Source of the DNA: Clostridia bacterium | Lineage (GTDB): Bacteria > Bacillota > Clostridia > UMGS1883 > UMGS1540 | Direction: 5' to 3' | Assembly (NCBI GenBank): GCA_017436645.1 | Contig: JAFSCR010000023.1 | Coordinates: 1-64,000, forward strand | Length of the DNA: 64,000 nt | Part shown: piece after piece, positions 1-21,663 of the stretch | How positions within the stretch are numbered: the stretch's first letter is position 1 | How the letters are laid out: every line of letters starts with the position of its first letter | Notes under the pieces: generated by a model | The model's input: only the letters and a program-made list of their open reading frames with translations | Database searches by the model: none | What the model was told of the DNA's origin: nothing | Made by a program: the position numbers and the translations under genes

Positions 1-50
1 AGGGAGAAGTCGGTTTTGGATGGTACTTTTCCGCTTATAGTGCACAAAAA

Positions 51-84
51 AATGTAGGCATACGCCAGTATGCCTACATTTTTT
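51..84. terminator. Perfect 13-bp hairpin, bidirectional terminator
   Basis: Bases 51-63 and 68-80 form a perfect 13-bp stem around the loop gcca. A T run follows on the plus strand and an A run precedes it, so it could stop transcription from either side. It probably ends a gene lying left of the window. No gene can be supported in bases 1-50. Confidence 0.8.
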
Positions 85-165
85 ATGATTTCTCTAAGAC
101 GAAAAATTCCTCACCCAAAACTGCTTCGCACCACAAAAAACTCGATTTATAGTGCAGAACAAGGC

Positions 166-204
166 AAAAAGGCACTGAAATCCTGACGGATTCAGCGCCT
201 TTTT
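166..204. terminator. Second hairpin, terminator-like
   Basis: AAAAAGGC (166-173) pairs with GCCTTTTT (197-204), and the inner CTGAA/TTCAG and ATCC/GGAT pairs continue the stem. It is a second terminator-like element in the gene-free left edge. Bases 205-359 hold nothing I can identify. Confidence 0.65.
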
Positions 205-359
205 AACGTAGTTGTGTGCAGAAATCGTGGTTTTTGGGCGATTTATCCCTAAGAAGCACCGCCGTTAGCTCGATTTTTTTGTTCAATTTTTTCTGTAGTA
301 TGAATTGCACAAAAACTATTTTTTGCTAAAAATTTTTTTTAGAAAATTTACAAAAATTC

Positions 360-388
360 TTGACACGATATTGAATTTGTGGTATAGT
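360..388 (+). promoter_or_regulatory. Sigma-A promoter of SP1
   Basis: TTGACA (360-365) and TATAGT (383-388) are separated by 17 bp. Transcription should start near 395, which leaves a 5' leader of about 550 bases before SP1. The promoter lies outside the inverted repeat that begins at 847. Confidence 0.85.
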
Positions 389-394
389 TTAGTT

Positions 395-942
395 AATACT
401 AATATAGTAAAATATATTATTGTGTACTTTGACAAAAACAGCATATAAAATCAAGGCTTCTTTTGGTTGTTTTGCATAATTTAATGTTTTCATATGCTTT
501 CATATAGATGACGTTTGAAGGAAGCTACATATCGGTCCTGAAGGGAAAAGGGGCCGGTTCGTTTTTTGATTTTAATGAAGGATTCTTTTCTCACGGGATT
601 TTTTCTTTAAATTGAAAAACGATGTTAAACAGTTAAGCCTGTTTAAATTTAGAGGGATTTTGAAATTTTGTTCTTTTCCGATTTTCCTGAGCCGCAAGGC
701 TTGTGTGTTTATGGTGAAAACATAGGAGCATTCGTGAAAAGAACCGTATAATTCCAATTTTGGGATTGTACACCTTCGCATTTTGTCGGTATTCCTGCAA
801 AATTGCGATTTTTCCTTCCGATATTCCGAAAATGGCGTATCGGTACTGCACAAAATAACGTTTTTGTGCAATTCACGTATTGTGAAATTTGCCCCGAAGG
901 GCGTTTCAGTATTTTTAAATTTTTTAGGAGGTTTTTTAAACC
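395..942 (+). promoter_or_regulatory. Long structured 5' leader of SP1
   Basis: This gene-free stretch is the presumed untranslated leader of SP1. It holds a terminator-like hairpin (532-566), a hairpin AAACAG (627-632)/CTGTTT (639-644) followed by AGAGGGA, a hairpin TGTTT (706-710)/AAACA (718-722) with loop ATGGTGA, and a last hairpin at 884-907 (GAAAT..GCCC/GGGC..GTTTC) just before the AGGAGG ribosome site. The AGAGGGA segment, the RTGGTGA loop and the last hairpin recur in the leaders of SP3 and SP4. I do not recognise it as a named riboswitch class. The short open frame covering 783-1034 is the leader read in another frame and is not a gene. Confidence 0.6.
532..566 (+). terminator. Terminator-like hairpin inside the SP1 leader
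   Basis: CGGTCC (533-538) pairs with GGGCCG (551-556), with one G-T wobble, and is followed by TTCGTTTTTT. It lies about 140 bases after the predicted start of transcription and 370 bases before SP1, so it could act as an attenuator. No matching element is obvious in the SP3 or SP4 leaders. Confidence 0.45.
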
Positions 943-976
943 ATGAAAAAGAAATTTCTGGCAATTTTACTTGGTG
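847..976 (+). repeat. Inverted repeat, left copy (130 bp, perfect)
   Basis: By direct reading, bases 847-976 are identical to the reverse complement of 4697-4826. The repeat spans the last 96 bases of the SP1 leader, including the hairpin at 884-907 and the ribosome site, plus the first 34 bases of the SP1 coding region. Similarity stops abruptly at both ends. The copies flank SP1 and SP2 head to head. Confidence 0.95.
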
Positions 977-3096
977 CATTAATGCTCGTAAGCATGATTC
1001 CTGCTACCGGCATGGCAGCAGCTGCACCCATTAACCTTGTTCCGAATGGTGATTTTGAAGACGACTTTGTTACCACAGAAACCGGTGATGTACCGACGGC
1101 TGCTTGGACGAACATTTCTGGCACTAACGGCACAATTTCCAAGGTTGCATCTGATGGCGACATTACACCGTACAGCGGTTCTTCTTTCGTAAAGATTGAC
1201 AGAAACGCAACCGGTTACTCCGCTGGTATGACTGGGTTCTATTGGCCCATTAGTGGTCTGGAAACAGGCACGCTCTATACCTTCTCCTTTGCTTATAATC
1301 TTCCCACGGATCTGCCTGACTATTCCGGTCAGTACAACGGTCTTTATGTTAGAAGTGCATCACAAACCGGTACTGCTATGCAGAATAAACCCGGCTCTGC
1401 TTATGCTACCTTCTATAACTTAGATAGTGAAAGAGCAGCTACAGACGGCTGGCAGAAGGAAGAATTAACCTTCTACTATGATGGCACAACAGCATATCTC
1501 TTCGTTGGTGTATCCTCCCGTACCACTGCATGTGTAGCTTACATCGACGCAATTAGCATCGTAGAAGCCACCTCTGCTGCTTCTGAAATTATCCCCAATG
1601 GTGACTTTGAAATTGGTTTTTATAATGGTGTACCGTCTCCTGCATGGACAAATAAGACGGCAGAAGGTAACGGCACAATTTCCAGAGTTACCCAGGCTGG
1701 TGACATCACCGCTTACAGTGGCGAAGGCTTTATGAAGATTGATAGAACCGCTTCCGGTTATTCCTCCGGCGTAACAGGTGTTTATTGGCCTGTTTCCGGC
1801 TTAACCGTAGGTAACTATTATAAATTCTCCTTCGCTTATAATATTCCGACAGCTCTGCCTAACTACTCCAATCAGAACAACGGTCTCTATGTAAGAGCCG
1901 CTGGAGATACCGGTAACTCTATGGCTAACTACCCCGCTGCCAGTTATGCAAGATTCTATAACATGGCTGCAGAAAGAGATGTGACAGATGGCTGGGCAAC
2001 AGATGAAGTTGTTTTTAAGTATGATGGCAGAACCGCCTATATCTTCATGGGCTTATCTTCTCGTGTAACAGCATGCGTAGCTTATCTGGATGCTTTCAAA
2101 CTGGAACCGGTTGCTTTTGAAGATGTTCCGGCACAGAGCATTCTGCCTTCTGACCTTGACGGAACCTTTACAGATGCAGAAGGTGTCTACGGCGGTACTG
2201 ACGGTAAGTACTTCTTCAACTCCAGAGCAGTAGTTGGCACAAACTACGACATCGTTGCGGATCCCACCAATGCTTCTAACAACGTTGTAAAGATTTACGG
2301 CTTTGACCATGCAAGAGAACAGTTCTTCTTCCCCAATCGCGTAACTGACGGTCAAAATGCCGCAGGCGATACGGTAAAAATTGCCTTCAGAATGTACGTG
2401 GAAGTAGACGCTTCTAAAGTAGAAGACTTTTCCAATGTAATACTTTTAAAATACGCTTCTGATAATATGGATAACACAAACAAGTACAGCAGAAGCGGGT
2501 GGGCATTCAATTCGACTAACGTAAACCGGTGGGTAGATGTTGTGATTTATGCACAGGCATATCGTCTTGCATCTGATAAATTGGCCTTAGACCCCTGGAC
2601 TGCTACAGATGATACAATTAAAGAAAATATTTACATTGACGATGTAGTTATGGAGACAGTTGTTGCAGGTGAAATTGCAAACTTCAATGCCGATGCACGA
2701 GTTGCAATCAACACAGAAAACACTGACTCAACCAGAACTTGGTTAGTAGGTTACATTGGTGAAAAGAATGCAACGCTGACCAAAACTTCTAAGTTTATGC
2801 CGGTAGTTCGTTTTGCATCTGATACTACTTCGGCAAATGGGATTGCCTATGCAATTGCTGCAGTTTATAAGGTTGATAATGGCGTTCGCACCCTGGTTGA
2901 TGTAAAGATTGAAGATCTCAAGAATGTTGCGCCGGCAGACGCTGCAGGTGTTACTGATTTAGGATTTACATCCCCTGATTTTTATATCGACCTCGGCGCA
3001 AAAGACCTTGCTGACGGCACTTACGAAGCAAAGTGCTTTGTTTGGAACGTTTTAGGCTTAGCTCCGGTTTATGAGGCAACCTATACTTTAAACTAA
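943..3096 (+). CDS. SP1: secreted protein with duplicated carbohydrate-binding-like module
   Basis: The 717-residue product starts with a signal peptide (residues 1-26, ending near GMAAAA), so it should be exported. Residues 30-209 and 215-391 are a clear tandem duplication. Each copy opens with a PNGDFE motif and closes with a Y[IL]DA strand, as in beta-sandwich carbohydrate-binding modules of the CBM4/9/22 type. A third, weaker beta-rich module covers about 400-570. The last 143 residues (about 575-717) are the C-terminal module shared by SP1-SP8. There is no catalytic domain, sortase motif or transmembrane tail. AGGAGG lies just upstream of the ATG. The gene has its own promoter (360-388), long leader and terminator. 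Ligand binding is inferred from fold-like motifs and no ligand can be named. Confidence 0.8.
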   Translation: MKKKFLAILLGALMLVSMIPATGMAAAAPINLVPNGDFEDDFVTTETGDVPTAAWTNISGTNGTISKVASDGDITPYSGSSFVKIDRNATGYSAGMTGFYWPISGLETGTLYTFSFAYNLPTDLPDYSGQYNGLYVRSASQTGTAMQNKPGSAYATFYNLDSERAATDGWQKEELTFYYDGTTAYLFVGVSSRTTACVAYIDAISIVEATSAASEIIPNGDFEIGFYNGVPSPAWTNKTAEGNGTISRVTQAGDITAYSGEGFMKIDRTASGYSSGVTGVYWPVSGLTVGNYYKFSFAYNIPTALPNYSNQNNGLYVRAAGDTGNSMANYPAASYARFYNMAAERDVTDGWATDEVVFKYDGRTAYIFMGLSSRVTACVAYLDAFKLEPVAFEDVPAQSILPSDLDGTFTDAEGVYGGTDGKYFFNSRAVVGTNYDIVADPTNASNNVVKIYGFDHAREQFFFPNRVTDGQNAAGDTVKIAFRMYVEVDASKVEDFSNVILLKYASDNMDNTNKYSRSGWAFNSTNVNRWVDVVIYAQAYRLASDKLALDPWTATDDTIKENIYIDDVVMETVVAGEIANFNADARVAINTENTDSTRTWLVGYIGEKNATLTKTSKFMPVVRFASDTTSANGIAYAIAAVYKVDNGVRTLVDVKIEDLKNVAPADAAGVTDLGFTSPDFYIDLGAKDLADGTYEAKCFVWNVLGLAPVYEATYTLN

Positions 3097-3130
3097 TATA
3101 ATTCATTTCTTACAAGTTTAAAAAAATTAA

Positions 3131-3158
3131 AAAGCCGCACCCAATTGGGTGCGGCTTT
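3131..3158. terminator. Bidirectional terminator shared by SP1 and SP2
   Basis: This is a 28-base perfect palindrome with a core of GCCGCACCC/GGGTGCGGC, flanked by A and T runs. It lies between the convergent SP1 and SP2 genes and can serve both. Confidence 0.9.
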
Positions 3159-3170
3159 CAAAATAACTTT

Positions 3171-4730
3171 TTATTCAGCTACTGTAAAATTAAAAGTGCG
3201 GCTGGAGAGAGCGTTCAGATTCGTGTTCCACACATAATATACAACTTCATAGTTGCCGGCTTCCAAATTCGTATACGTGGAAAGATCAAAAGCTAAATCA
3301 TCAGTATAGAATATCCCAACCGACGGTAAAGTCCAGCTACTTTTAACGTTGATAAGATCACCAACAGTGGATGACTTTGCCTTAATATCCACTAATGTAG
3401 AAACCCCTTCTTCTACCTTGCTTAATGTTGCAAAAATATATGCAGAACCACCGACTTCATCAGGGTCAAAAACTACAACGGGTTTCACAACAGATGTGTT
3501 TGTGTAAGAAGAAGGTGTTGTACCCTTTGTGATTAAATAGCCGGCATAATTTCTTAAATTCGTCGCGGAAGCATCAACATGCATTCCGCTAATGTAAGAT
3601 TCTTCATTGAAAACTTCAAGCTTAAGATCATCAACATAGTATATGCAATTGATGTATTCCATATATGCAGCGAGATTGCCCGAATCTACACAGTTAAAAT
3701 ATAATTCGTATTCAGTCCATGTATTATAGCTCGGACTTGCAATGGATTGTCCTGAGAAGATACTACCTTCCTTCGTAATCCTAATACGGAATGACTTACC
3801 TTCTGTGAAAGATTCATTTCCTTCACTGGGAACATACATTTTGAAGGAAAGCTTAAGCAATTTATTCACACCAAGTCTAGGCGAGAAGGAAGGAATAAAC
3901 TTTACAGTATCAGTACTGGTACCGGAGCTTTTCAAGACATAGTTTCCACTTTCAGCAGGGAATTCAACGCGTTCAACATTATGTGTTGATTTATACTTGA
4001 AAACAGATACATCTGTTGAAGCACTCTGGAAATCGTAATAGAAAAGAGCGGATACTGCAGGGATTACCGCAGAATCAGAAGTAGCCTGAGAGCAAACAAG
4101 GTTTGCTTTATTTGTCGAGCCACCTTTATAATAGTCGTACGACGCAGAAGGAACTACAAAATGATCGTCATAGGTACTTGAACCTACTCTAACTGTAATT
4201 TCTTCAAATGGGCTTTCAAAATCAGGGTTCGGCAACAAATTGATCTCATCGCTGACTTTATAGAGCTTAACATTATCAACATAAACAATACCGGTGCCGC
4301 CACTCTTCGAAATTCCGAACTTAAAAAGCGGAGAAGTTCCTTGTTCAGTTGCTGTAAGTTCTCTGCCTGTAAACGTTAATTCCCTCGTAACCCAACCTGT
4401 TGTATTCCCGGATACAGAAGTAGAGGATCCACTAATATATGTACTTTCGTAACTTGCGCCTTTCGCAAAACCAAAAAAGAAACCAGCGGCGCTCCCTTTT
4501 TCAATGCGATAGTCAAAAGACGCCTTGTATTCAACGCCGACTTCAGGGACAAACGGAAAAGTCAACATAGCTTCTTTGCCGTCCTTCAGAGTTTTTTCCA
4601 TCTTTAAAAAATGATTGCCACCATTTGAACTAGGGGTGACCGTAACGGTTTTGTCCGCCATAATGCCCATAGGCAACACGGACATAATGAGAAGTACACC
4701 AAGTAAAATTGCCAGAAATTTCTTTTTCAT
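3171..4730 (-). CDS. SP2: secreted binding-like protein, possible silent cassette
   Basis: The 519-residue product has a signal peptide whose first codons match SP1 exactly at the DNA level, because the inverted repeat covers 4697-4730. The rest is unlike SP1. Residues about 27-165 resemble the N-terminal module of SP4 (a conserved [AV]LTP start and a YVDNVKLY end). A region opening with NLLPNPDFE follows, then another beta-rich module ending YYVDDLKLEV. Residues about 379-519 are the shared C-terminal module. It converges on SP1 and shares its terminator. Unlike the other seven SP genes, I find no convincing promoter upstream on the minus strand (4827-5040), and the RTGGTGA-loop part of the leader is absent. 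It may be silent in this orientation. Function unknown; binding is inferred. Confidence 0.75.
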   Translation of the reverse strand: MKKKFLAILLGVLLIMSVLPMGIMADKTVTVTPSSNGGNHFLKMEKTLKDGKEAMLTFPFVPEVGVEYKASFDYRIEKGSAAGFFFGFAKGASYESTYISGSSTSVSGNTTGWVTRELTFTGRELTATEQGTSPLFKFGISKSGGTGIVYVDNVKLYKVSDEINLLPNPDFESPFEEITVRVGSSTYDDHFVVPSASYDYYKGGSTNKANLVCSQATSDSAVIPAVSALFYYDFQSASTDVSVFKYKSTHNVERVEFPAESGNYVLKSSGTSTDTVKFIPSFSPRLGVNKLLKLSFKMYVPSEGNESFTEGKSFRIRITKEGSIFSGQSIASPSYNTWTEYELYFNCVDSGNLAAYMEYINCIYYVDDLKLEVFNEESYISGMHVDASATNLRNYAGYLITKGTTPSSYTNTSVVKPVVVFDPDEVGGSAYIFATLSKVEEGVSTLVDIKAKSSTVGDLINVKSSWTLPSVGIFYTDDLAFDLSTYTNLEAGNYEVVYYVWNTNLNALSSRTFNFTVAE

Positions 4731-4826
4731 GGTTTAAAAAACCTCCTAAAAAATTTAAAAATACTGAAACGCCCTTCGGGGCAAATTTCACAATACGTGA
4801 ATTGCACAAAAACGTTATTTTGTGCA
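4697..4826 (-). repeat. Inverted repeat, right copy (130 bp, perfect)
   Basis: This is the reverse-complement partner of 847-976. It carries the pre-ribosome-site hairpin (4766-4789), the AGGAGG site and the start of SP2. Upstream of 4826 the sequence has no similarity to the SP1 leader. Confidence 0.95.
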
Positions 4827-4957
4827 CTGTTTTTTAGAAGGCACTACAAGGGAAAGAGAAGAGTGTGAACTTTTTTATGTTGAAAAAATTTTTTAGTGCC
4901 GAAATTTCGGACAATTTCAAAGTTTTAAAATTTTTTTCATAAAAAACTATAAAAAAT

Positions 4958-4986
4958 TTGACAGATATCAAAAATTTTGCTATAAT
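4958..4986 (+). promoter_or_regulatory. Sigma-A promoter of SP3
   Basis: TTGACA (4958-4963) and TATAAT (4981-4986) have a 17-bp spacer with an extended TGC before the -10. Start is expected near 4993, giving a leader of about 330 bases. The rest of 4827-4957 holds nothing recognised. Confidence 0.9.
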
Positions 4987-5084
4987 TAATTTGTTAGAAA
5001 TTTTGAGTTTTCTGTTTTATTTTTTGCAAATTTAAAGCAAAATGAACAAAAGACAGTGGGCGAAAAAAGTTTTAACATTACATT

Positions 5085-5299
5085 TTCGGGACAGGCTGAT
5101 GTTTTTTCTGCCTTTCGGGGCGGATACATAAGATACGGCATGATGAGATGCCTGTTTAAAAAAGAGGGAAATAAAACATTTTACCTGTCTGAAAACGTGT
5201 TTATGGTGAAAACACGGATGGATATAAAATGTTTGTGTGTTTAATCAAACAAAATGCTTCGTCCCGAATTTCTTTGTGAAACTTGCCTTTTGGCGTTTC
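5085..5299 (+). promoter_or_regulatory. Structured leader RNA of SP3
   Basis: An 8-bp closing stem, TTCGGGAC (5085-5092)/GTCCCGAA (5261-5268), encloses ACAGGC (5091-5096)/GCCTGT (5150-5155), an AGAGGGA segment, and the hairpin CGTGTTT (5196-5202)/AAACACG (5210-5216) with loop ATGGTGA. The closing stem and the ACAGGC pairing compete for the AC at 5091-5092. A separate hairpin, GAAAC..GCC tttt GGC GTTTC (5278-5299), sits just upstream of the ribosome site. The same parts recur before SP4. No known riboswitch family was recognised. Confidence 0.65.
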
Positions 5300-5348
5300 A
5301 ATATAATTTAGGAGGTCTAAATTTATGAAAAAGAAAATTTTGGCAATT
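5272..5348 (+). repeat. Direct repeat, copy 1 (SP3 start)
   Basis: Bases 5272-5348 match 7493-7569 at 75 of 77 positions. The repeat covers the last leader hairpin, the ribosome site and the first eight codons. Recombination with copy 2 would fuse the SP3 leader and start to the SP4 body. Confidence 0.9.
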
Positions 5349-7055
5349 ATGATTTGTGCTCTGCTTCTTGCATGCATGATTCCTGCAGGCGCTATGGCAG
5401 AGGCAGTAACAAACATTCTCCCCAACGGGGATTTTGAAGTCGGATTTTCCGGCGCACCCGATGAAGGCTGGGTAACCGTTCTGCATAGCTCCGTTGCTGG
5501 TACATTAGGGGATGCTTCTTCCGTAACTTCTGCTACTTTTGGTGAAGAAACTATTTTGCCGGTTGAAGGTTCCACAAAGTTTTTGCAGATTAACAGACAT
5601 AATGGAGATGGTGGAGATCTTTCCAATCTTGAAAACCGCTCCACCGGTATGTACATTGTTTTAGATGACACAAAGCTGACAGCCGGTAAATTTTATAGAT
5701 TTGAATTCTATTTAAACATTCCCGAAGGTGCACTCAGCGATGGCGTTCATGCAAACTTCTTCTTCCAGAATGGTAGCGGAAGCCATGTTGGTGCTTGGAG
5801 AACCCATAACTGGTACGTTCCCTCCGGCGTTTCTTACAGAAATATGACGGCTGCAACAAACGGCTGGGAAAAGAAAGGCTTTACTTTTATGTGGGACGGC
5901 AATGCAACACAGCTTACTGTTGCTCTCTACGGCGCAGGTGCTGCAGGCACAATGTTTGTTGATGAATTAAAAATTTACGAAACAAATCCCCCTGCATTAC
6001 AGGAACTGATGGGTGAAAACTTTGAAGGCACTGCGATTGCTTCAACAATTAACTCCGCTTCTTCTTTTAAAGTAAGAGAAAATCGTGGCACACTGTCTAT
6101 CGAAACTGACCCCGCCGGTGGCACAAATAAAGTTATGAAGGTTGCTGCTGCAAACAAAGAATGTTTCGCACCCATTGGTATGGCAGGTCAAAGTAACCAT
6201 AAATCCTATTCTATCTTTTCTGTAACGGACACATTAAAGCTTTCCTTTAAGATTTATGTTCCTGCACAGACTGCAAAAGCAGAAGAATCCAATAATAGTT
6301 ATACGGTTGATTATGCAATCGGTGGAGAAACAGGCAATGGATTTGCTTTAGAACTGAACTACATCAACAAACCGGCTGACTCTACAAAATCTGCTTCCAC
6401 TTCCGGTCGTGCAAGACCTACTCTTGAATTTGACAAATCTTATGTAGGCAAATGGATTAATGTTGAAGCATATCTTTTGGGCTTCCAGAAGGAAAATCCG
6501 ACTCTTGCAATGATAACTTATGCACTTACAGAAGAGGGCGCACTAGGCGCTGGTGCAAAATTCAATTTCTACATTGATGATATTAAGCTTGAAAAAATCA
6601 ATGGCGGCGGTCATGTAAGTAACCTCAACGTTGATAAAATCTCCCGTACAGGTCGTGCTGTTTCCGCCACTGTAGATGCAAACTGGGCTGTAATGGCTAC
6701 AGGCACATATCCCGAAAGCTTTACAAAAACACAGACTGTAAGCCCCATTCTTGCTTATGCACCCGCATCTCTTTCCGATAAGGGTCTTGCAATGGCAATG
6801 GTTTATAAAGTAGAAGGCGATACACAGACTCTCGTTGATATTAAATTTGAAATCCTTGGTCGTGTAGCACTCGCAGACTTTAGCGGCTTTAGCTCTGCCG
6901 CTGCAGGTGTTGCTTCCAGTGCCCTTGATATTGACCTTTCCACGGAAACCTTTGAAGCAGGTTCCACCTATAAGGTTGAATATGCGCTTTGGAATATGGC
7001 AGGTCTCGCGCCTGTTGCAGAATCTGTAATCTTCAATGTTGTTGATGCTGCATAA
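5325..7055 (+). CDS. SP3: secreted carbohydrate-binding-like protein
   Basis: The 576-residue product has a signal peptide ending near GAMAEA (about residue 26). Residues about 30-220 form a binding-like module opening NILPNGDFE and closing FVDELKIYE. This module is closely related to residues 895-1086 of SP5. Residues about 225-425 form a second beta-rich module (IDDIKLEKI near its end). Residues about 430-576 are the shared C-terminal module, with a KGLAMAMVYK motif and a closing WNMAGLAP. There is no catalytic domain. The gene has its own promoter, structured leader and terminator. Binding to a glycan is an inference. Confidence 0.8.
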   Translation: MKKKILAIMICALLLACMIPAGAMAEAVTNILPNGDFEVGFSGAPDEGWVTVLHSSVAGTLGDASSVTSATFGEETILPVEGSTKFLQINRHNGDGGDLSNLENRSTGMYIVLDDTKLTAGKFYRFEFYLNIPEGALSDGVHANFFFQNGSGSHVGAWRTHNWYVPSGVSYRNMTAATNGWEKKGFTFMWDGNATQLTVALYGAGAAGTMFVDELKIYETNPPALQELMGENFEGTAIASTINSASSFKVRENRGTLSIETDPAGGTNKVMKVAAANKECFAPIGMAGQSNHKSYSIFSVTDTLKLSFKIYVPAQTAKAEESNNSYTVDYAIGGETGNGFALELNYINKPADSTKSASTSGRARPTLEFDKSYVGKWINVEAYLLGFQKENPTLAMITYALTEEGALGAGAKFNFYIDDIKLEKINGGGHVSNLNVDKISRTGRAVSATVDANWAVMATGTYPESFTKTQTVSPILAYAPASLSDKGLAMAMVYKVEGDTQTLVDIKFEILGRVALADFSGFSSAAAGVASSALDIDLSTETFEAGSTYKVEYALWNMAGLAPVAESVIFNVVDAA

Positions 7056-7066
7056 TTAAAGTTTTT

Positions 7067-7094
7067 AAAACGCACCCTTCGGGGTGCGTTTTTT
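7067..7094 (+). terminator. Terminator of SP3
   Basis: AAAACGCACCC and GGGTGCGTTTTTT pair around a TTCG loop. The following bases 7095-7252 hold no feature I can support. Confidence 0.9.
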
Positions 7095-7252
7095 GCATAA
7101 TGAAACCCGTGCGATAGTCGCTGGACCATAAGAACTTAAGTGATAAAAATGAATCTTCATGACATAGGGCATTCAATAAGCGGATATATGGAATGTAATT
7201 ATCCAATGAAATTGACCACAAGCTTACTGATATATAAATAATGAAAATAAAT

Positions 7253-7281
7253 TTGACATTCGTGTGTAATTTTGCTATAAT
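7253..7281 (+). promoter_or_regulatory. Sigma-A promoter of SP4
   Basis: TTGACA (7253-7258) and TATAAT (7276-7281) have a 17-bp spacer and an extended TGC before the -10. Confidence 0.9.
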
Positions 7282-7339
7282 AATTATATTACAAATCGTG
7301 ATGGCGTTTTTCCGCCTTTTACTGAATTTGTAATATACT

Positions 7340-7520
7340 TTCGGGACAGGCTGTTCGCACTTGGCATACATATTGATTTTTGAGATGCCTGTTTAAAAAA
7401 GAGGGAAATGAAACGGTTTTTGTTTTGTAGCCTATGGCACGTGTTGTGGTGAAACACGTAAAATGAACCAGAAAAGGTTTGTCCCGAATCCCCTTTGTGA
7501 AACTTGCCTTTTGGCGTTTC
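7340..7520 (+). promoter_or_regulatory. Structured leader RNA of SP4
   Basis: A 9-bp closing stem, TTCGGGACA (7340-7348)/TGTCCCGAA (7480-7488), encloses ACAGGC (7346-7351)/GCCTGT (7387-7392), then AGAGGGAAATGAAAC, then ACGTGTT (7439-7445)/AACACGT (7453-7459) with loop GTGGTGA. The pre-ribosome-site hairpin is at 7499-7520. The sequence between the conserved parts differs strongly from the SP3 leader, which suggests selection on the RNA structure. Confidence 0.65.
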
Positions 7521-7569
7521 AATATAATTTAGGAGGTCTAAATCCATGAAAAAGAAAATTTTGGCAATT
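7493..7569 (+). repeat. Direct repeat, copy 2 (SP4 start)
   Basis: This copy matches 5272-5348 at 75 of 77 positions; the two differences lie just before the ATG. Confidence 0.9.
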
Positions 7570-9207
7570 TTAATTGGTGCACTGCTTCTTGTATCTATGG
7601 TACCCGTAGGCAGCATGGCAGCAAAAACTGTTGCGCTTACACCCAAAGAAGGAAACGGTGATTATTTCCTGAAATTTGAAAGAACAGTTACAGGTACCAA
7701 TAATCCCACACTTTTATCCTTATCTTTTGTACCTGAAGCCGGTGTTACATACAAATTCTCCTATGATATTTTTGCAGCACCTGGATTTTCCGGCTACTTT
7801 GGCGTAGGTTATTATAAAGGTTTAACCTATGACTCCTCTTATATTGCCGGTACTATTTCTTCCACAAGTGCCGCAACAGACGGATGGGAAACGAAGGAAA
7901 AAGAATTTACAGGCACAGAGGATGCTGCAGCGCAGACTGCTACTGTATTTAAAATCGGATTTACTAAGACTTCCGATGTCGGCGTTGTTTACTTAGATAA
8001 CATGAAGCTTTATAACACTGCTGCACCTGATGTTAACTTACTTGAAAACGGCAGCTTTGAAAATGAGTTTACCACAGCTTCCGTCTTAGTTACCGGCGTA
8101 GAACCCTCGCCCACTGTATCCGTTCCCGCTGCTTCCTACACCTACTATAAGGGCACCAGAAGTGCTGTTGTCGGCGGCGAATTAACGCGTATTTCTTCCG
8201 ATGAAGTTATCGCAGCTGATACAATTAAGATTCAGAGCGAGGACTTCACGAATCTCACTACAGAAGCTGCTAACACCTCTTCAGGTGGTTATGTTTCAAG
8301 AGCAAGCCGCGGTAGTGTAGAAGTTACCGATGACCCCGTTGTTGCAAATGCCGGAAATAAAGTTTTGAAAGTTAACAATGGCAATACTTCAAATCCTGTT
8401 GCAAGTATTCTGAAAATGCAAGGGAATGACACAACCGGTGCTTATCCCAATTATTCCGATGGTAATACTTTTAAAGTTTCCTTCCGTGCATATATTCCTG
8501 CACAGGATTACGTAAGCGGTGAAGAAACGAAAAATACAGCTACAGATGGATTCAAGTTTGGCGTTTATTATAAAGACGCCGGTTTAAGATATGCAACGTC
8601 TTCTGTTGAATTTGCCGGTGCAGATGCCGGGAAGTGGCTGAACATGGAAGCATATGTAAGTGCATTCCAGAATTCTGCAGCAGCTCCTTCACAGGATGTA
8701 CATTTGCGTTTCTATATTAACCTCGCTGGTATCTTCTATGTTGATGATATCTTAGTTGAAGTTATTGACTCTGATGCTTATGTAAGCGCAATGAACGTTG
8801 AAAAGAGTGGTGGTCATGCACGCAATGCTGCTGACGGTGGATCCTGGGCATACTGTGTACAGGGTACTTATCCTACATCTTTCGCCAAGACAGATGCGAT
8901 TCGTCCCGTTATCGCATATACACCCGGCAACACAACCGCTAAAGGTCTTGCATTTGCCGCAGTATACAAAAATGAAGGCGACACACAGACTCTGGTTGAC
9001 ATCAAAGTTGCACCTGTAGCCCGTGTTGCAAGAACAGCATATACCGGCGTTCTCGCATCCGAAGAAATCGGTATTGCAAGCGATTCTCTTGCAATCAATC
9101 TTGCAGGATTGGATCTGACTTCCGGTAGCTACTCTGTTGAATATTTCGCATGGGATATGGCAGGCTTTGCTCCCATTGCAGCCAAAACCTTTACGATTGC
9201 CGATTAA
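7546..9207 (+). CDS. SP4: secreted carbohydrate-binding-like protein
   Basis: The 553-residue product has a signal peptide ending near GSMAA. Residues about 27-165 are related to the first module of SP2. Next comes a stretch starting NLLENGSFE. Residues about 225-405 form a beta-rich module strongly related to about 1090-1290 of SP5 (shared SRGS/TRGS, NKVLKV, TFKVSFR/TLKVSFR and SGEET/SGETT motifs). Residues about 408-553 are the shared C-terminal module. There is no catalytic domain. It is single-gene, with promoter 7253-7281 and terminator 9222-9250. A binding role is inferred from module type and from its kinship with the enzyme-like neighbours. Confidence 0.8.
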   Translation: MKKKILAILIGALLLVSMVPVGSMAAKTVALTPKEGNGDYFLKFERTVTGTNNPTLLSLSFVPEAGVTYKFSYDIFAAPGFSGYFGVGYYKGLTYDSSYIAGTISSTSAATDGWETKEKEFTGTEDAAAQTATVFKIGFTKTSDVGVVYLDNMKLYNTAAPDVNLLENGSFENEFTTASVLVTGVEPSPTVSVPAASYTYYKGTRSAVVGGELTRISSDEVIAADTIKIQSEDFTNLTTEAANTSSGGYVSRASRGSVEVTDDPVVANAGNKVLKVNNGNTSNPVASILKMQGNDTTGAYPNYSDGNTFKVSFRAYIPAQDYVSGEETKNTATDGFKFGVYYKDAGLRYATSSVEFAGADAGKWLNMEAYVSAFQNSAAAPSQDVHLRFYINLAGIFYVDDILVEVIDSDAYVSAMNVEKSGGHARNAADGGSWAYCVQGTYPTSFAKTDAIRPVIAYTPGNTTAKGLAFAAVYKNEGDTQTLVDIKVAPVARVARTAYTGVLASEEIGIASDSLAINLAGLDLTSGSYSVEYFAWDMAGFAPIAAKTFTIAD

Positions 9208-9221
9208 TTTAATTTAGCATT

Positions 9222-9250
9222 AAAACGCACCCGACCGGGTGCGTTTTTTT
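9222..9250 (+). terminator. Terminator of SP4
   Basis: AAAACGCACCC and GGGTGCGTTTTTTT pair around GACC. The stem is nearly the same as that of the SP3 terminator. Confidence 0.9.
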
Positions 9251-9260
9251 ATATTTAAAT

Positions 9261-9290
9261 TTGACATCCTGTCTTTGTTTATGCTATAAT
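9261..9290 (+). promoter_or_regulatory. Sigma-A promoter of SP5
   Basis: TTGACA (9261-9266) and TATAAT (9285-9290) have an 18-bp spacer and an extended TGC. The leader is short (about 58 bases) and lacks the structure seen before SP1, SP3 and SP4. Confidence 0.85.
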
Positions 9291-9354
9291 AAATTTAACT
9301 TTTTAATTTGAAAAGATTTGGTTTCGGTACTTTACAAAGAAAGGAAAAAAGACT

Positions 9355-12300
9355 ATGCGCAAATTATCATTATTTCTCGTTTTTGCACTTGTCCTGGGAG
9401 CTTTTACGGTCCTTCCGGCTTCCGCCGCACTTTCAGCAAATCCCGTAAGCTTTGTGGAAGGAGAGGAAACACTCCAATTAAATTTGAACGCTTTCGATAT
9501 CGTTCCCAATGGTTCATTGGAATACGCTTCCGATGGCGTTGTCACCGCTTGGGGCGTCAGCTGTAATCAGTCCATTGGCGGAGCGGCACAAAACTTTATC
9601 GGCAGCGATATTATATTCCGCACCGATTCGGACGTCCATAGCGGTACATATGCACTGCAGATTACAAATCCAACCGCTCAAAACACTTCGGGCGCCAATT
9701 CTTCCACTTGCATCAGAATGTCCGTCGCCGTTACGCCCGGCGTCACCTATGAAATGTCCGCATGGGTAAAATCTCTGGATGTTACCTCCGGCTATGCATA
9801 TTTTCACGGTATGTTTACGAATGCCGCAGGAAGTAATTCCGGCTTTACCCGCATGAACCAGACTTACCAGAATCCTACGGCAGCTTCTCCCATCACCTTG
9901 CCTGCCGGCACTTGGGTGAAGAAGGGCCTTCGTTTTACGCCGCCTGAAGGTGCAACCAACCTAACCATCTATTATTACTTAGTAGGCAAGGGCAGCATTT
10001 TATATGATGATATTATAATTCTTGCACCCAAGAGCTCTATGCCTGAGAAGGTAGGCGATGCAAAGAAAGCACCAATCCTTACCGAAAACTCGTCCGACTT
10101 TGGTAACATTTACGCACAGGATCTTTCTTTGGGCACCTTTGAAGGATATTCTGACGGCTACTTCCTGAATAAATCAGAAAGAACCGGTCCCAGCGCACAT
10201 AATGCACAGGTTACTTCAGCATATAACCACACGGAAGGCGGCTCCAAGAGTTTACACCTTAAAAATAAAATCAATGCCGCGCACGGCGATTTTCAACCGA
10301 ATCTGTATTATAAGCCCATTTATCTTGTGCCCGGTGCAACCTACCAGATTTCCACATGGATTTTGGCACCTGAACCCGGCACCAGCGCAGATTTTTCCTA
10401 CTGGATTAATTTTGTAAAATCTGATGGGGCAACGGATCAGAAAAAACAGCACTTAGGTGTTAAAACTTACGGCTGGTGGCGTGAATTCATTTTTGAATTT
10501 AACGTTCCTGTAGATTCCGCAAACGTTAAAACAAACATTGAACTTCGCCTGATGCACGATAATATGGAATACTATATAGATGATGTTTCCTGTTATATGG
10601 TAGAAAAGCCGCCTTATGCAGATGTTAAAACAGACGAAATGTTCTATTACACTGATTTTGTAACCGGCAAATGCACAGCTGATCCTTTTTCTGCGTATAA
10701 AAATGACCTTGTAGGCGGTAGGGTGGATTATGCGCTTCTGGATACAGACGGCACCACCATTCTCGATTCTGAATCCGTTTCCTATGTAAATTATGAAGCA
10801 GACTATGAATTCAGCCTTTCTTTATTGGAAGATAAAGGGGAGGAATACTTCGTTTCTGCCAGAGTGCATAATGCTGACGGAGAAGTTGTGCAGGAGAAGC
10901 TTTCTTCCATTTACCGTTATGACCGACCCACATATTTAGGTGCTGACGGTATTTTCCGCAAAAACGGAAAAGAATACAATCTGGTTTTCGGCTCCGGCGT
11001 TACAACGGAACTTTTAAATGCCGATCCGAGACGCGGCGGTGTTACGGTTGTCCGCCTTGTGGCAGACGGTACTTCTCTCGAGTCCCGTATGGATAAAGCA
11101 CACGAAATGGGTCTTCTTTGTCTCGTTGGTCTTTACGGTAACGGCAAGATTAACTCTACAGAAGGCATTATTAACACAGTAAATTCCGTTAAAAATCACC
11201 CGGCGCTTTTTGGCTATCAGGTGCAGGATGAACCCTATCAGAAGGGGGATTCGGAGGAAGAACTTGCAAGAGCTTATAAAGCCATTCGTGATAATGACCC
11301 GGACCATGTTGCATATCTTGTCGACTCGGTAGAGGGCGGCTTCCCGTACCTTTTCCGCTATGCCGACTTTGTTGAAATCGACTACTATGGTGGACGTGGA
11401 GATGATTCCGGCAGAATAATTGGTCAGAAAATGGATGCTGCACGTGTTGCCTCAAAGGGCAGAAAGCCTTTCGGTCTTACCCAGCAGGCATTCCAGTATG
11501 AAGGGTATTTGCCTACGGTAGATGAATTCCGTAACTTTGCATATCAGAACTTCTTCTCCGGCGCCCAGGGCATGGGTTACCACTCCCTCGGTGTTGATGG
11601 CTCTGATGGTGTTACCACTCCATTTATGTATCTGGATGAATGGGCAGAACTGTGTGAAAGATTCGCTCCCTGGGAACAGGGTTTCCTGCTGGACTGCTTT
11701 GTAAATAAAAAGTATCCGCTCTTAAATTCCTATAAAGATAATAATGTTTTGTGGCGTACCTATCTTGTTAACGGAGATATTTATGCCATCGTATTAAATC
11801 GCCAGAAGAATGCATCTTCCGAAGCCTCCATTCCGCTGACGGACAGCCTCGGCAATTCTCTCATTGAAAACTTCTCTGCAAAGCGTATGGCCGGCACAAA
11901 AGGGGAGGAGAACATTACACTTCGCGGCTCAAGCACATTAAACCTCACTTTAGGCGGCATTGTTGGCAGGGCCGGCGGAATGACGCTTACAGAGCTTGGC
12001 GGCCTTGCAGCAGAAATCTGGAGAATTAGATCTTCCAATAATTTAATTGAAAACGGGGAGTTTGACGACGAGTTCAGCGGTGCACCGGCAGAAAGCTGGA
12101 ATGAAGCTTTATATAACTCTGTTGCAGGAACCCTCGGCACTGCGTCTTCCGTATCTTCAGCACAGGTTGGGGATGTAACAATTTCTCCGGCAGTTGAGGG
12201 GTCCGAAAAATTCCTCAAGCTTGAGCGCCATAACGGAACCGGCGGTGACCTTTCCAAGCTTAATAATCGCCCAACGTCCCTTTACACAAAGCTGGATACT

Positions 12301-13611
12301 TCTATTCTGCAATCCGGAAAATCCTATCGCTTCGAGTATTATGTCAATATTCCCCAAGGTGCTATGGGTGACGGCGTAAAGGCCAGAATCTCTTTCCAGA
12401 ACGGAGCAAGCGGACATTACGGCGTTTTCCGCGACCATAACTGGTATGCTGCAGGGGACTATTCCTCTTATGCCATGACCGGCACCAACGGGTGGGAAAA
12501 GAGAACCTTTGATTTCATCTATGACGGCAAGGAAACACAGCTGAATATTGCACTTTACGGTGCAGGCGCAGCCGGTACAGTTTTTGTAGACGAAATGAAG
12601 CTTTATGAATATGAGCCTGAAACCATTCTGATTCATAAAGAAAATTTTGAATTTCAGACAACCGAAACTGTTCATTCCGTGCAGGGCGGCTATTTGACAA
12701 GAGATACCAGAGGAAGCCTTTCTGTTGCTGCAGATCCGGTTGATAATACGAATAAGGTACTGAAGGTACATCCCACAAATGTTTCCAATCCCGTAACAAG
12801 CCTTCTTAAAATGAGCACAAATGACGTTACTGCGCCGATTACGACGTTTACGGCACAAGATACCTTAAAGGTTTCCTTCCGTTTCTATATGCCTACGGGC
12901 ACATATACTTCGGGAGAAACCACAAAAGCCACAAACGTTGACGGCTTCAGCCTTGGAATTTCGTATAAGGATGTAACTTCCGGCTCCGCCTCCACATCCG
13001 GCCTTGTTGAACCTATCATTTCCTTTGCCGGAAGCGATGCCAATAAATGGATTTATGTGGAAGCTTATTTAAAAGCTAACTGTACCAATGCGCCGAGGCT
13101 CTGGCTCCGTCCGGGACAGACGAACGTGGACTTTTATGTAGACGATGTAAGGGTTGAAAAGATTAACACCACGGCTTATATCAGCACGATGAACATAAAG
13201 AAATATGCAGGTGTTTCCCGTCTGACGGATGCGGATGTTGACCAGAACTGGGGATATATCATTTCGGGTGATTATACGAACACCTATAAAAAGACGGACA
13301 CTGTACGCCCCCTCATTGCTTTCACATCGAAAGAATTAACGGAAAAAGGGAAGGCACTTGCCGTTCTTTATCGCATTGAAAATGGCGCCGAAACAGTTGT
13401 GGATATCCGAATGGAGGAAGTTGGCCGTGTTGCGATTTCTTCTCTGACGGGTGCAGTTTCGACGGATACGGGCATCAGCTCCGAAACCCTTTCCATGGAT
13501 CTTTCCGCCAAAAACCTCACGTCCGGAGAGTATCGCATTGACTATATGCTCTGGAGCGGGGAAGGCATTACGCCGCTTTGCGACGGCATATCCTTTACAG
13601 TAACTGAATAA
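9355..13611 (+). CDS. SP5: secreted multidomain glycoside hydrolase-like protein
   Basis: This 1418-residue product starts with a signal peptide (residues 1-25, PASAA). Two binding-like beta modules follow (about 45-226 and 255-418), then a beta-sandwich domain (420-520). A probable (beta/alpha)8 barrel (about 522-795) opens with the motif YLGADGIFRKNGKEYN. E626 in QDEPYQ sits where clan-A hydrolases carry the acid/base glutamate. A beta domain follows (798-893), then a module like that of SP3 (895-1086), a module like that of SP4 (1090-1290) and the shared C-terminal module (about 1290-1418). The catalytic nucleophile is not obvious. Substrate unknown; a secreted polysaccharide-degrading role is inferred from architecture. 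It is single-gene, with its own promoter and terminator. Confidence 0.8.
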   Translation: MRKLSLFLVFALVLGAFTVLPASAALSANPVSFVEGEETLQLNLNAFDIVPNGSLEYASDGVVTAWGVSCNQSIGGAAQNFIGSDIIFRTDSDVHSGTYALQITNPTAQNTSGANSSTCIRMSVAVTPGVTYEMSAWVKSLDVTSGYAYFHGMFTNAAGSNSGFTRMNQTYQNPTAASPITLPAGTWVKKGLRFTPPEGATNLTIYYYLVGKGSILYDDIIILAPKSSMPEKVGDAKKAPILTENSSDFGNIYAQDLSLGTFEGYSDGYFLNKSERTGPSAHNAQVTSAYNHTEGGSKSLHLKNKINAAHGDFQPNLYYKPIYLVPGATYQISTWILAPEPGTSADFSYWINFVKSDGATDQKKQHLGVKTYGWWREFIFEFNVPVDSANVKTNIELRLMHDNMEYYIDDVSCYMVEKPPYADVKTDEMFYYTDFVTGKCTADPFSAYKNDLVGGRVDYALLDTDGTTILDSESVSYVNYEADYEFSLSLLEDKGEEYFVSARVHNADGEVVQEKLSSIYRYDRPTYLGADGIFRKNGKEYNLVFGSGVTTELLNADPRRGGVTVVRLVADGTSLESRMDKAHEMGLLCLVGLYGNGKINSTEGIINTVNSVKNHPALFGYQVQDEPYQKGDSEEELARAYKAIRDNDPDHVAYLVDSVEGGFPYLFRYADFVEIDYYGGRGDDSGRIIGQKMDAARVASKGRKPFGLTQQAFQYEGYLPTVDEFRNFAYQNFFSGAQGMGYHSLGVDGSDGVTTPFMYLDEWAELCERFAPWEQGFLLDCFVNKKYPLLNSYKDNNVLWRTYLVNGDIYAIVLNRQKNASSEASIPLTDSLGNSLIENFSAKRMAGTKGEENITLRGSSTLNLTLGGIVGRAGGMTLTELGGLAAEIWRIRSSNNLIENGEFDDEFSGAPAESWNEALYNSVAGTLGTASSVSSAQVGDVTISPAVEGSEKFLKLERHNGTGGDLSKLNNRPTSLYTKLDTSILQSGKSYRFEYYVNIPQGAMGDGVKARISFQNGASGHYGVFRDHNWYAAGDYSSYAMTGTNGWEKRTFDFIYDGKETQLNIALYGAGAAGTVFVDEMKLYEYEPETILIHKENFEFQTTETVHSVQGGYLTRDTRGSLSVAADPVDNTNKVLKVHPTNVSNPVTSLLKMSTNDVTAPITTFTAQDTLKVSFRFYMPTGTYTSGETTKATNVDGFSLGISYKDVTSGSASTSGLVEPIISFAGSDANKWIYVEAYLKANCTNAPRLWLRPGQTNVDFYVDDVRVEKINTTAYISTMNIKKYAGVSRLTDADVDQNWGYIISGDYTNTYKKTDTVRPLIAFTSKELTEKGKALAVLYRIENGAETVVDIRMEEVGRVAISSLTGAVSTDTGISSETLSMDLSAKNLTSGEYRIDYMLWSGEGITPLCDGISFTVTE

Positions 13612-13614
13612 TAC

Positions 13615-13645
13615 AAAAAGCACACTTTTAAAAAGTGTGCTTTTT
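13615..13645 (+). terminator. Terminator of SP5
   Basis: AAAAAGCACACTTTT pairs with AAAAAGTGTGCTTTTT. The flanking A and T runs make it symmetric. Confidence 0.9.
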
Positions 13646-13657
13646 CTTTGAAAAAAA

Positions 13658-13687
13658 TTGACATCAATCTTTATTTTGTGATATAAT
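13658..13687 (+). promoter_or_regulatory. Sigma-A promoter of SP6
   Basis: TTGACA (13658-13663) and TATAAT (13682-13687) have an 18-bp spacer and an extended TGA before the -10. Confidence 0.85.
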
Positions 13688-13756
13688 GAATTATATTTAT
13701 ACATCTGTGCAGAATCTGTTGATTTATCTTGATTTTAACAGGAGAGAGGTTATTTT

Positions 13757-16700
13757 ATGAAAAAAATTTCCCTAATTTTGGCGGCGATACTTTTAATGGG
13801 TCTTTTCACGGCTCTACCGGCCAGCGCAGCCATTTCGATTTCCAGTTCCGTTATTACAGAAGCGGAAGCTACACTTATTCCCAATGTGAACGCTGTGGAA
13901 GGCTTTTCCAACAGCGGTTTTGAAAGTGCGCTGAGTTCTTATAACTGGGAGAAAATCGGCACTTCCGCAAACACCGTTGAAAGAAGTACGGATGCAAAAA
14001 ACGGTTCCTATTCTCTGAAAATCACCAATGCGGAATCCGCTTCGGATTCCACCCAGACCGGTGCGCATAATAATTTTAAGATTATTCCCGGTGTTACCTA
14101 TGAAATTTCTGCATGGTTTAAGTCTGAAAAAACCACCGGTAGCGCAGAACTTCACGGATTGTTTTACGGCACGGATGAAAACGGGAATTCTGTAGGGTAT
14201 TCAAGAATGCATCTGTATTTTTCCATATCTTTTAATGACTGGACAAAGAAAATTATCCGCTTTACAGCGCCCGTACATTCTACCTCTCTCACGATTTACT
14301 GTTATAATAAAGGGCCCGGCACTGTATATTTTGACGATGTTTCTGCCATGGTTCCGAAGGAAGCGGTTCCGGCTCTCAATATTGATGAACCGAAAGAACC
14401 GGTTGAAGGTATGTCTCCTCTTTTTAGCGAGAATTTTGAAAACTTTGATGCCGGTTATTATTATCATCAGTCTTCTTCCCAAAACCCCGGTATTTTTGCC
14501 GGTCACCATGTTATGGTTTCCGATGCTGTTCCCAATGCTGAAACCGGGAGCAGCAAAAGCCTTAAGTTTTTACATGGCTCCAATCCAAACCAAGGATCTT
14601 TTAACGGACTTGCAAATTTCTATTCTACAGGTTCGCTGAATCTGGTTCCCGGCGCTGTATATCAGGTATCAGCATTAGTAAACACGCCTACTTTCGGCAC
14701 TTCTTCCACTTTTGCTATCTGGGTCAGCTTTGATGTTGAGGAAAGCGGATCTGATATTACAAAGAAAAGCTGGACGCTTACCCATTACCCCTGGTGGAGA
14801 AGAGTCGTTTTTGAATTTGAGGTCCCCCTTGATGTTACAAGTGCGACCTTCCAGCTTCGTTACAGTTCCAGTGTAAATCCGCTTTATGTTGATGATTTTT
14901 CCGCCTACATGGTAGATGCTCCTGCACACGCTTTTGTTGAATCCGATGAGCTCTTCTATTATTCGGAATGGGAAGAAGGTTATGTTTCCGCAAGCGCTAA
15001 CAGTTATTACGGAAGCGAGCTTGTCGGCGGCAGAGTGGAATATAAATTTTATGATACCGACGGGGAAACAGTTCTTGAGTCCTGTGCAGTTCCTTATGCA
15101 AACGGGGAAGCCACCTATACATTCAGAACGGGCCTTATGGTAAAGAAAACGGAAAGATACTATATTGGCGCAAAAGTATATTCCGGTCAGGGCGCTTTAG
15201 TGCAGGAGGAACGCCTCCATGTTTACCGCTTTGACAGGCCTACTTATCTCGGTGCTGACGGTATCTTCCGTAAAAACGGCAAAGAATATAACATTGTTCT
15301 CGGTAACGGCGTAAATACAGAACGTCTTAACAAAGACCCGCGCACAGGCGGTGTTACTGTTGTTCAGATTATTGCGGATCCTTCCAACATGGGAACTACA
15401 ACGAAAGACCGAATGGATCTGGCGCATTCTATGGGTCTTCTTTGTCTTATTAATTTCTATGGTGGTACAAACGGTGGCGCACCTGAAGCGATCGAAAAAA
15501 CTATAAATACTGTATCCTGGGCAAAAAATCATCCCGCACTTTTTGGGTATAAGGTACAGGACGAACCCTACCAGAAGGGCGAACCGGATGAAGATATGGA
15601 ACGTGCTTATGCCCGTATTCGCAAGGAAGACCCGAATCATCCCGTGTATCTTGATGACTCTGTGCCCGGCGGTTATAAATGGCTTTACCGTTATGCCGAT
15701 ATTATTGACATTGACTATTACGGCGGTAGAAGTAGTGAACCGGGCAAAATTTTTACAGAAAGATTGGAGCTCGCTGCACAGGCAACAAAGGGAAGAAAAC
15801 CTTTTAGCCTTTTACAGCAGGCTTTCAAGTTCAACGGATATCTGCCCACCGTCGATGAACTCCGTAGCTTTACCTATCAGGCATTTTTTGCAGGAGCATC
15901 CGCTTTTGGATATCACACACTTGGGGTTGACGGTTCGGATGGTGTTGAAACCTGCTATATGGACAGCGAAGATTGGGCTGAACTCGGAGAAAGATGGGCA
16001 CCATGGGAACAGGGATTCCTGTTTGATGCTTTCGTAAACGACAAGTTTGAACTGCTCCGTTCTTACAGAGATGATAATGTAATGTGGAAAACTTTCCGCG
16101 ATGGAGAAGATATCTACGCTGTTATGTTTAATCGCCTTCGAGATTCTGCTGCCACTGTTTCCATTCCTCTGACGGATGCAAATGGTGTTTCACTTATCGG
16201 GAGGTACTCTGCCTATCGTGCCGCAGGGACAAAAGGTGCTGAACCTGTTTATGTTACGGGAAATAATACATTAAATGTTACATTAGGTGGCATTGTGGCC
16301 AGAAACGACAAGATGGAACTTGTTCCAAGAGAAGGTATGGCAGCTGAAATCTGGAAGATTTCACCTGACAATAATCTTCTGCCCAACGGCTCTTTTGAGG
16401 CTGATTTTACAGATGGTGTACCTACGGCAGCTTGGACGGCAGGCCTTGGATATGGTTCCGGTGGCAGTGTAAGCGTTGGAACTATTTCTCAGCTTTCAAG
16501 CGATACACACGGGGATATCGAGATTTCTCCGGCAGTAGATGGCTCTTTTAAGTTTATGAAGCTGCAGAGATATAACCCGAGCACCGGGAATCTTACGGAT
16601 AACAGACCTACCCGTCTTTCCATTCCGATTTCTTCTATCGGCCTTGAGTCCGGAAAGAGCTACCGCTTTGAAGGTTACTTTAACATTCCTTATGCTGTTG

Positions 16701-17845: not shown

Positions 17846-17849
17846 CAAT

Positions 17850-17877
17850 AAAAAACTCACCGAAAGGTGAGTTTTTT
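17850..17877 (+). terminator. Terminator of SP6
   Basis: AAAAAACTCACC and GGTGAGTTTTTT pair around a GAAA tetraloop. Confidence 0.9.
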
Positions 17878-17879
17878 AT

Positions 17880-17909
17880 TTGACAGGGAAACTGAATATA
17901 TGGTAAAAT
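17880..17909 (+). promoter_or_regulatory. Sigma-A promoter of SP7
   Basis: TTGACA (17880-17885) and TAAAAT (17904-17909) have an 18-bp spacer and an extended TGG. It begins three bases after the SP6 terminator. Confidence 0.8.
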
Positions 17910-17963
17910 AAAGTGACAGATTATTGCGACATAACATATTAAACATATAAGAGGGAATATAAA

Positions 17964-21545: not shown

Positions 21546-21551
21546 ATTTTC

Positions 21552-21592
21552 AAAAACCCTAAAATAGCCATTTGTGTTGTTTTAGGGTTTTT
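21552..21592 (+). terminator. Terminator of SP7
   Basis: AAAAACCCTAAAA (21552-21564) pairs with TTTTAGGGTTTTT (21580-21592) around a 15-base loop. Confidence 0.8.
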
Positions 21593-21604
21593 ATTCAATT
21601 TTCC

Positions 21605-21633
21605 TTGCATTTTTTTTTAAAAACTGTTATAAT
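21605..21633 (+). promoter_or_regulatory. Sigma-A promoter of SP8
   Basis: TTGCAT (21605-21610) and TATAAT (21628-21633) have a 17-bp spacer and an extended TGT before the -10. Confidence 0.8.
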
Positions 21634-21663
21634 GAAATGGAATATTCATTCGGAGGTTGAAAC

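Follow-up and report, generated by a model that had tools for sequence, protein, structure and literature searches.

Several systems in which genes for alternative proteins are exchanged by DNA inversion have been described. In phage Mu, alternative gene bodies of the G segment are swapped by inversion behind a fixed start, and the serine recombinase Gin adjoins the segment. In Campylobacter fetus, the surface-protein cassettes of the sap locus have the same conserved 5' ends, and a single promoter is moved from one cassette to another by inversion; this promoter is located inside the invertible element, and several cassettes are present. In Lactobacillus acidophilus, the slpB gene has no promoter, and the expression site is occupied by slpA in 99.7% of laboratory cells (PMC6015585); slpB reaches this site by inversion (PMC7858073). 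The slp segment is about 6 kb long and encodes known S-layer proteins, and its inversion is proven (Boot et al. 1996, cited in PMC6015585). In Mycoplasma agalactiae (vpma) and M. bovis (vsp), silent genes are joined to a unique promoter by inversion at a conserved region immediately before the start codon, and the putative sites of Xer1-dependent switching in M. agalactiae lie within 72 nt just upstream of start codons (PMC2268961). In the cwpV switch of Clostridioides difficile, the enzyme RecV is remote from the switch (PMC2784873). Invertons as a class are defined by short inverted repeats of 10–40 nt (PMC11892184).

The window, namely the whole analyzed stretch of 64,000 nucleotides at the start of contig C22 of a Clostridia bacterium genome assembled in 33 contigs, contains a locus with slp-type anatomy. 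The inverted paralogous genes SP1 (+ strand) and SP2 (- strand) are bounded by arms that keep the reading frame, and a promoter was found before one of the two genes using a consensus scan. The features of the locus and of the neighboring paralogues SP3 and SP4 are as follows.

1–265, no strand: dispersed MITE-like repeat that has terminal inverted repeats (CGGCGGTGCTTCTTAGGGA) and is cut off by the start of the contig; it bounds the candidate switch and is not part of it
301–344, - strand: decayed third copy of the outer end of the arm (TGAATTGCACAAAAAC..), upstream of the SP1 promoter
360–388, + strand: SP1 promoter, TTGACA-17-TATAGT with TG before the -10 element, 11/12 consensus matches
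389–942, + strand: long 5' leader of SP1, strongly folded (z -5.6), with its last 96 nt within the repeat
847–976, + strand: left arm of the perfect inverted repeat (sequence comparison)
847–870, no strand: 24-bp palindrome TGCACAAAA-TAACGT-TTTTGTGCA, which forms the outer end of the left arm
943–3096, + strand: SP1, secreted protein of 717 aa, occupying the expression site in the assembly
3130–3159, - strand: intrinsic terminator of SP2 in the gap that separates the convergent genes; the stem comes after SP1 as well
3171–4730, - strand: SP2, secreted protein of 519 aa, candidate silent cassette
4697–4826, - strand: right arm of the perfect inverted repeat (sequence comparison)
4803–4826, no strand: 24-bp palindrome forming the outer end of the right arm, with TTTTTT just beyond the arm (terminator-like on the + strand)
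4958–4986, + strand: SP3 promoter, perfect TTGACA-17-TATAAT (consensus scan)
5325–7055, + strand: SP3, paralogue with its own promoter and leader
7253–7281, + strand: SP4 promoter, perfect (consensus scan)
7546–9207, + strand: SP4, the paralogue closest to SP2 (36% identity)

The original prediction named C. fetus sap and the phage Mu G segment as precedents. The slpA/slpB locus is closer: it is also a pair of paralogous secreted-protein genes with a promoter on one side only (PMC6015585, PMC7858073). By analogy, the best reading is that the SP locus would work like slpA/slpB, although it is shorter (4 kb), its proteins are CBM-like according to the SP2 model and its inversion is predicted from sequence. 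Unlike in C. fetus, the promoter is fixed outside the segment and serves a single gene pair. The vpma and vsp loci are multigene with adjacent Xer1, whereas the SP locus has two genes and, unlike the phage Mu G segment, lacks a neighboring recombinase of the two families searched. The cwpV switch shares with the SP locus its occurrence in Clostridia, a surface protein and a fixed promoter outside the invertible DNA (PMC2784873). However, cwpV has 21-bp imperfect repeats around a 195-bp leader segment, which is turned ON or OFF by a remote recombinase (PMC2784873), while the 130-bp arms of the SP locus would exchange whole genes and a remote Xer-type enzyme is only a candidate here. The new features of the SP locus are the 24-bp palindromes, the decayed third copy of the arm, the folded leader RNA and the carbohydrate-binding-like folds of the SP2 model.

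Comparison of the arms showed that 847–976 is the exact reverse complement of 4697–4826 (130/130 bases), as had been claimed. The arms bound a segment of 3,980 bp and are separated by 3,720 nt. Each of them comprises 96 nt of leader, in which the ribosome site AGGAGG is located, plus the initial 11 codons (MKKKFLAILLG), which bears out the claim that they span the leader end, the ribosome site and the signal-peptide start of the two convergent genes. The identity ends sharply at both arm boundaries, and zero differences at 130 sites correspond to a calculated divergence of less than about 2.3% (95%). A whole-genome search found the arm sequence at only two sites in the 1.75-Mb genome, and related sequences at SP3 and SP4 were 71–75% similar. 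The window and twelve further stretches of 20 kb each, 304 kb in total, contained no second spaced perfect inverted repeat of at least 24 bp, and the remaining hits were short hairpins. The arms are thus the sole such repeat in this sample, and a chance origin was rejected.

The SP1 and SP2 proteins are only 26% identical and, judging by their sequences, the genes are old paralogues. In genes this diverged, descent alone would not be expected to leave 130 identical bases that include spacer and synonymous positions. Since the 100% identity is confined to the arms of otherwise very diverged genes, we infer that the arms recombined with each other recently. Note that inversion, i.e., reciprocal exchange, and one-way conversion would leave the same arm identity.

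To assess the consequences of recombination, the segment 847–4826 was reversed in silico. Positions 389–976 remained unchanged, and a complete 519-aa SP2 was obtained on the + strand and a complete 717-aa SP1 on the - strand. This confirmed the expectation that recombination would place SP2 behind the SP1 promoter with its frame kept, and it is exactly what the design of an exchange switch requires. Promoters were scanned using the sigma-70 consensus only. The near-consensus SP1 promoter was confirmed at its predicted place, and the promoters of SP1, SP3, SP4 and gene 5 all had 11–12 of 12 consensus matches, each with TG before the -10 element. The absence of a recognizable SP2 promoter was a fair description, given that the best site on its own strand within the 498 bases upstream outside the arm had 8/12 matches and no TG; within the arm, no site exceeded 7/12.

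In the proposed mechanism, the promoter at 360–388 and the long leader up to position 846 would be the fixed part, and 847–4826 would be the movable part, flipped by recombination between the arms. Such a flip would exchange SP1 and SP2 behind the promoter while the leader, ribosome site, signal-peptide start and frame would be retained. The homologous recombination of the cell would be the simplest route. A length of 130 bp suffices for this process, with no special enzyme needed. An alternative route would be a remote Xer-type enzyme, possibly acting at the palindromes. For an active switch, we infer reciprocal and recurrent recombination, a silent SP2 as assembled and the enzyme involved. 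On the whole, we lean slightly towards a switch in which inversion at an expression site selects between two cassettes encoding secreted, carbohydrate-binding-like proteins. The locus is a good candidate, and the chances that the switch is active are about even. The anatomy (reading frames intact in both orientations, one-sided promoter and leader, an intact SP2 that lacks a recognizable promoter and is less codon-adapted) supports the predicted expression-site/silent-cassette pair, whereas the inversion itself is a candidate only.

If the segment does invert, some of the cells of a gut commensal would replace one secreted, glycan-binding-like protein by another. This would extend slp-type switching to a lineage of Clostridia with little-known inversions, and long-arm invertible systems without a local recombinase would be seen to escape searches built on short repeats.

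The signal peptides of SP1–SP4 all belong to one family, and those of SP1 and SP2 remain family-like past the arm end. SP2 has an intact reading frame and its own terminator and is the only gene of the family on the - strand of the window. None of the SP1–SP4 proteins matched a Pfam family. The neighboring paralogous large proteins matched CBM_4_9; these are four tandem secreted paralogues of 1,191–1,418 aa with CBM_4_9 domains, encoded at 9355–25239. A C-terminal part is common to them and to SP1–SP4. Modeling of SP2 using AlphaFold2 led to a model of modest confidence (mean pLDDT 64) consisting of beta-sandwich domains. In this model, residues 225–375 matched CBM22 domains (Z about 12, with an rmsd of about 2.7 for 136 residues), the N-terminal part showed a loose alignment with the partner domain in a CBM22 tandem, and residues 376–519 matched Ig-like sandwiches. 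The predicted fold allows us to assume that SP2 could combine CBM-like domains of the jelly-roll type with an Ig-like sandwich at its C-terminus, and the SP proteins are probably secreted and carbohydrate-binding-like, with SP2 being the one whose fold was modeled. The codon adaptation of SP2 was lower than that of SP1 (0.589 vs. 0.673; 95% interval of the difference 0.028–0.135), a modest difference measured against the paralogues SP3 and SP4 as reference. Lower adaptation would be expected if SP2 were expressed less of the time. The strand skew at third codon positions was considered as a clock for the time spent by SP2 on the - strand, but codon preference dominated this signal.

The SP1 leader of about 550 nt folds much more stably than expected (z -5.6), and none of the 100 shuffled sequences was equally stable. 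The leaders of SP3 (4993–5324) and SP4 (7288–7545) also fold better than their shuffles, with z values of -3.5 and -2.9, respectively. All three leaders contain the motif GCCTGTTTAAA..AGAGGGA (637–657 in SP1); the genome has no other copy of it, and it was absent from all 27 relatives searched. Further hairpins, TGTTT-ATGGTGA-AAACA and GAAAY-TT-GCC..GGC-GTTTC, were found before the same three genes. In the predicted SP1 fold, positions 645–666 outside the arm pair with positions 903–922 inside it, adjoining the ribosome site. As predicted, SP2 has no upstream leader: only the arm part is present as assembled, and the motif is absent before it. A search of the SP1 leader against Rfam revealed no family at E < 0.1. 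The leaders of SP1, SP3 and SP4 are possibly a new lineage-specific regulatory RNA. A more elaborate reading, which we hold tentatively and consider rather unlikely, is that, in this uncultured gut lineage of Clostridia, an active flip would change the protein together with its regulation at the RNA level via the structured leader, with the decayed third arm marking an earlier cassette. The fixed promoter and large leader RNA would then be usable only by the gene in the active position.

The decayed copy at 301–344 is 80% similar to the arm end over 44 nt (E 9e-5, whole-genome search), has the opposite orientation to 847–875 and holds an exact 16-mer that is shared with 4798–4813 and is present in inverted form at 860–875. 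The SP1 promoter and leader sit between a 16-bp perfect inverted repeat, 301–316/860–875. The order upstream of SP1, namely an arm end followed by a promoter, resembles that of the SP2–SP3 interval. Because of this resemblance, an earlier minus-strand cassette may have existed upstream of SP1 and may have been cut by the dispersed element at 1–265. This element is one of at least four MITE-like copies of about 290 bp that are 93–98% similar and partly self-complementary, and contig breaks fall inside them; the other copies were found at C7:62416–62696 (a contig end), C15:13162–13420 and C25:243–506.

The rival that survives best is a static pair, in which an inverted duplication or a recent one-way conversion of the 130-bp 5' end occurred and there is no useful rate of inversion; SP2 would then be weakly transcribed from an unrecognized promoter or would be decaying. 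We regard this as a real possibility, though somewhat on the unlikely side. A single recent conversion would suffice for the identity of the arms, and the leader-end/signal-peptide region is conserved in the family anyway, as the corresponding blocks of SP3 and SP4 are 88% alike over 129 nt. The weak 8/12 promoter-like sites before SP2 also fit a static pair. However, the full frame, family-typical signal peptide and terminator of SP2 would be hard to keep without some expression. In addition, conversion and inversion both start from pairing of the arms, which means that genes capable of the former can also undergo the latter.

The static pair also agrees with the search of relatives, in which the opposite orientation was not found. 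SP2 was compared with 98 genomes and the sequence A1 with the order, and outside this genome only weak partial matches were obtained. At the seven loci around the best of these matches (genomes G001, G002 and G004), there was no long inverted repeat except two pairs of 74–78% at one locus. Two congeneric genomes contained remote paralogues only, and the surroundings of the paralogues inspected were free of long perfect inverted repeats. A scan of genome contigs for relatives using SP2 and a search of viral contigs using the arm gave no match. The opposite orientation was thus unseen because the relatives lack the locus. The nearest named relatives of a protein from the window came from Clostridia/Oscillospiraceae metagenome genomes, one of them from goat rectum.

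A site-specific inverton, in which a Xer-type tyrosine recombinase would act at the palindromes and the remaining arm identity would be incidental, seems improbable to us. The two 9-bp palindrome arms with their 6-bp spacer do resemble the core site of a tyrosine recombinase, and the pattern is nearly exclusive to the two arms: with up to two mismatches, the genome contains only one further site, a 2-mismatch site on contig C4. Precedents are provided by the remote RecV for cwpV (PMC2784873) and by Xer1 sites near start codons (PMC2268961). A stand-alone Xer-like tyrosine recombinase of 278 aa is encoded on C21 (1195–2031) besides XerD on C4, and it is a candidate for the remote invertase or for a XerC partner. 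XerD adjoins genes that we take, by eye from sequence, to be spoIIM-like and dacF-like, and the other recombinases of the genome look mobile-element-borne. Against a site-specific enzyme, the identity extends 106 nt beyond the palindrome, which a short core site would not need, and no recombinase of the two families searched was found nearby. The earlier statement that the window contains no recombinase therefore holds for those two families and is limited to them. The 130-bp arms also fall outside the 10–40 nt definition of invertons, though a 24-bp palindrome is present in each. These palindromes could act as terminators, operators or recombinase sites; the terminator reading is based on the T-run that follows the right one, and with a T-run on one side the palindrome may simply be a terminator.

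It is very unlikely that the assembler created the repeat or gave the segment its orientation. In favor of such an artefact, the assembly consists of 33 contigs and is broken at the dispersed repeat, 847 bases away from the left arm. Against it, the inner and outer flanks of both arms are all unique sequence, the signal peptides of SP1 and SP2 still resemble those of the family past the arm end, and the starts of C22 and C7 share exactly 141 bases before they diverge, which fits a de Bruijn assembly with k=141 and is suggestive only. A fold-back chimera was rejected on the unique arm flanks. With k=141, a repeat of 130 bp would be spanned; other contig overlaps, of 109 and 122 bases, do not fit this value, so the test based on 141-base contig ends is not general. 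If k=141 is right, there is a hint that the orientation seen in the assembly clearly predominated in the sample. A single orientation was assembled with no break at the arms, which suggests that the inverted form was rare or absent in that sample. In a genome of the same family, a contig of 16,706 bp (G004:C17, L129; positions 1–16706) is a perfect palindrome over its full length, very likely an assembly fold-back.
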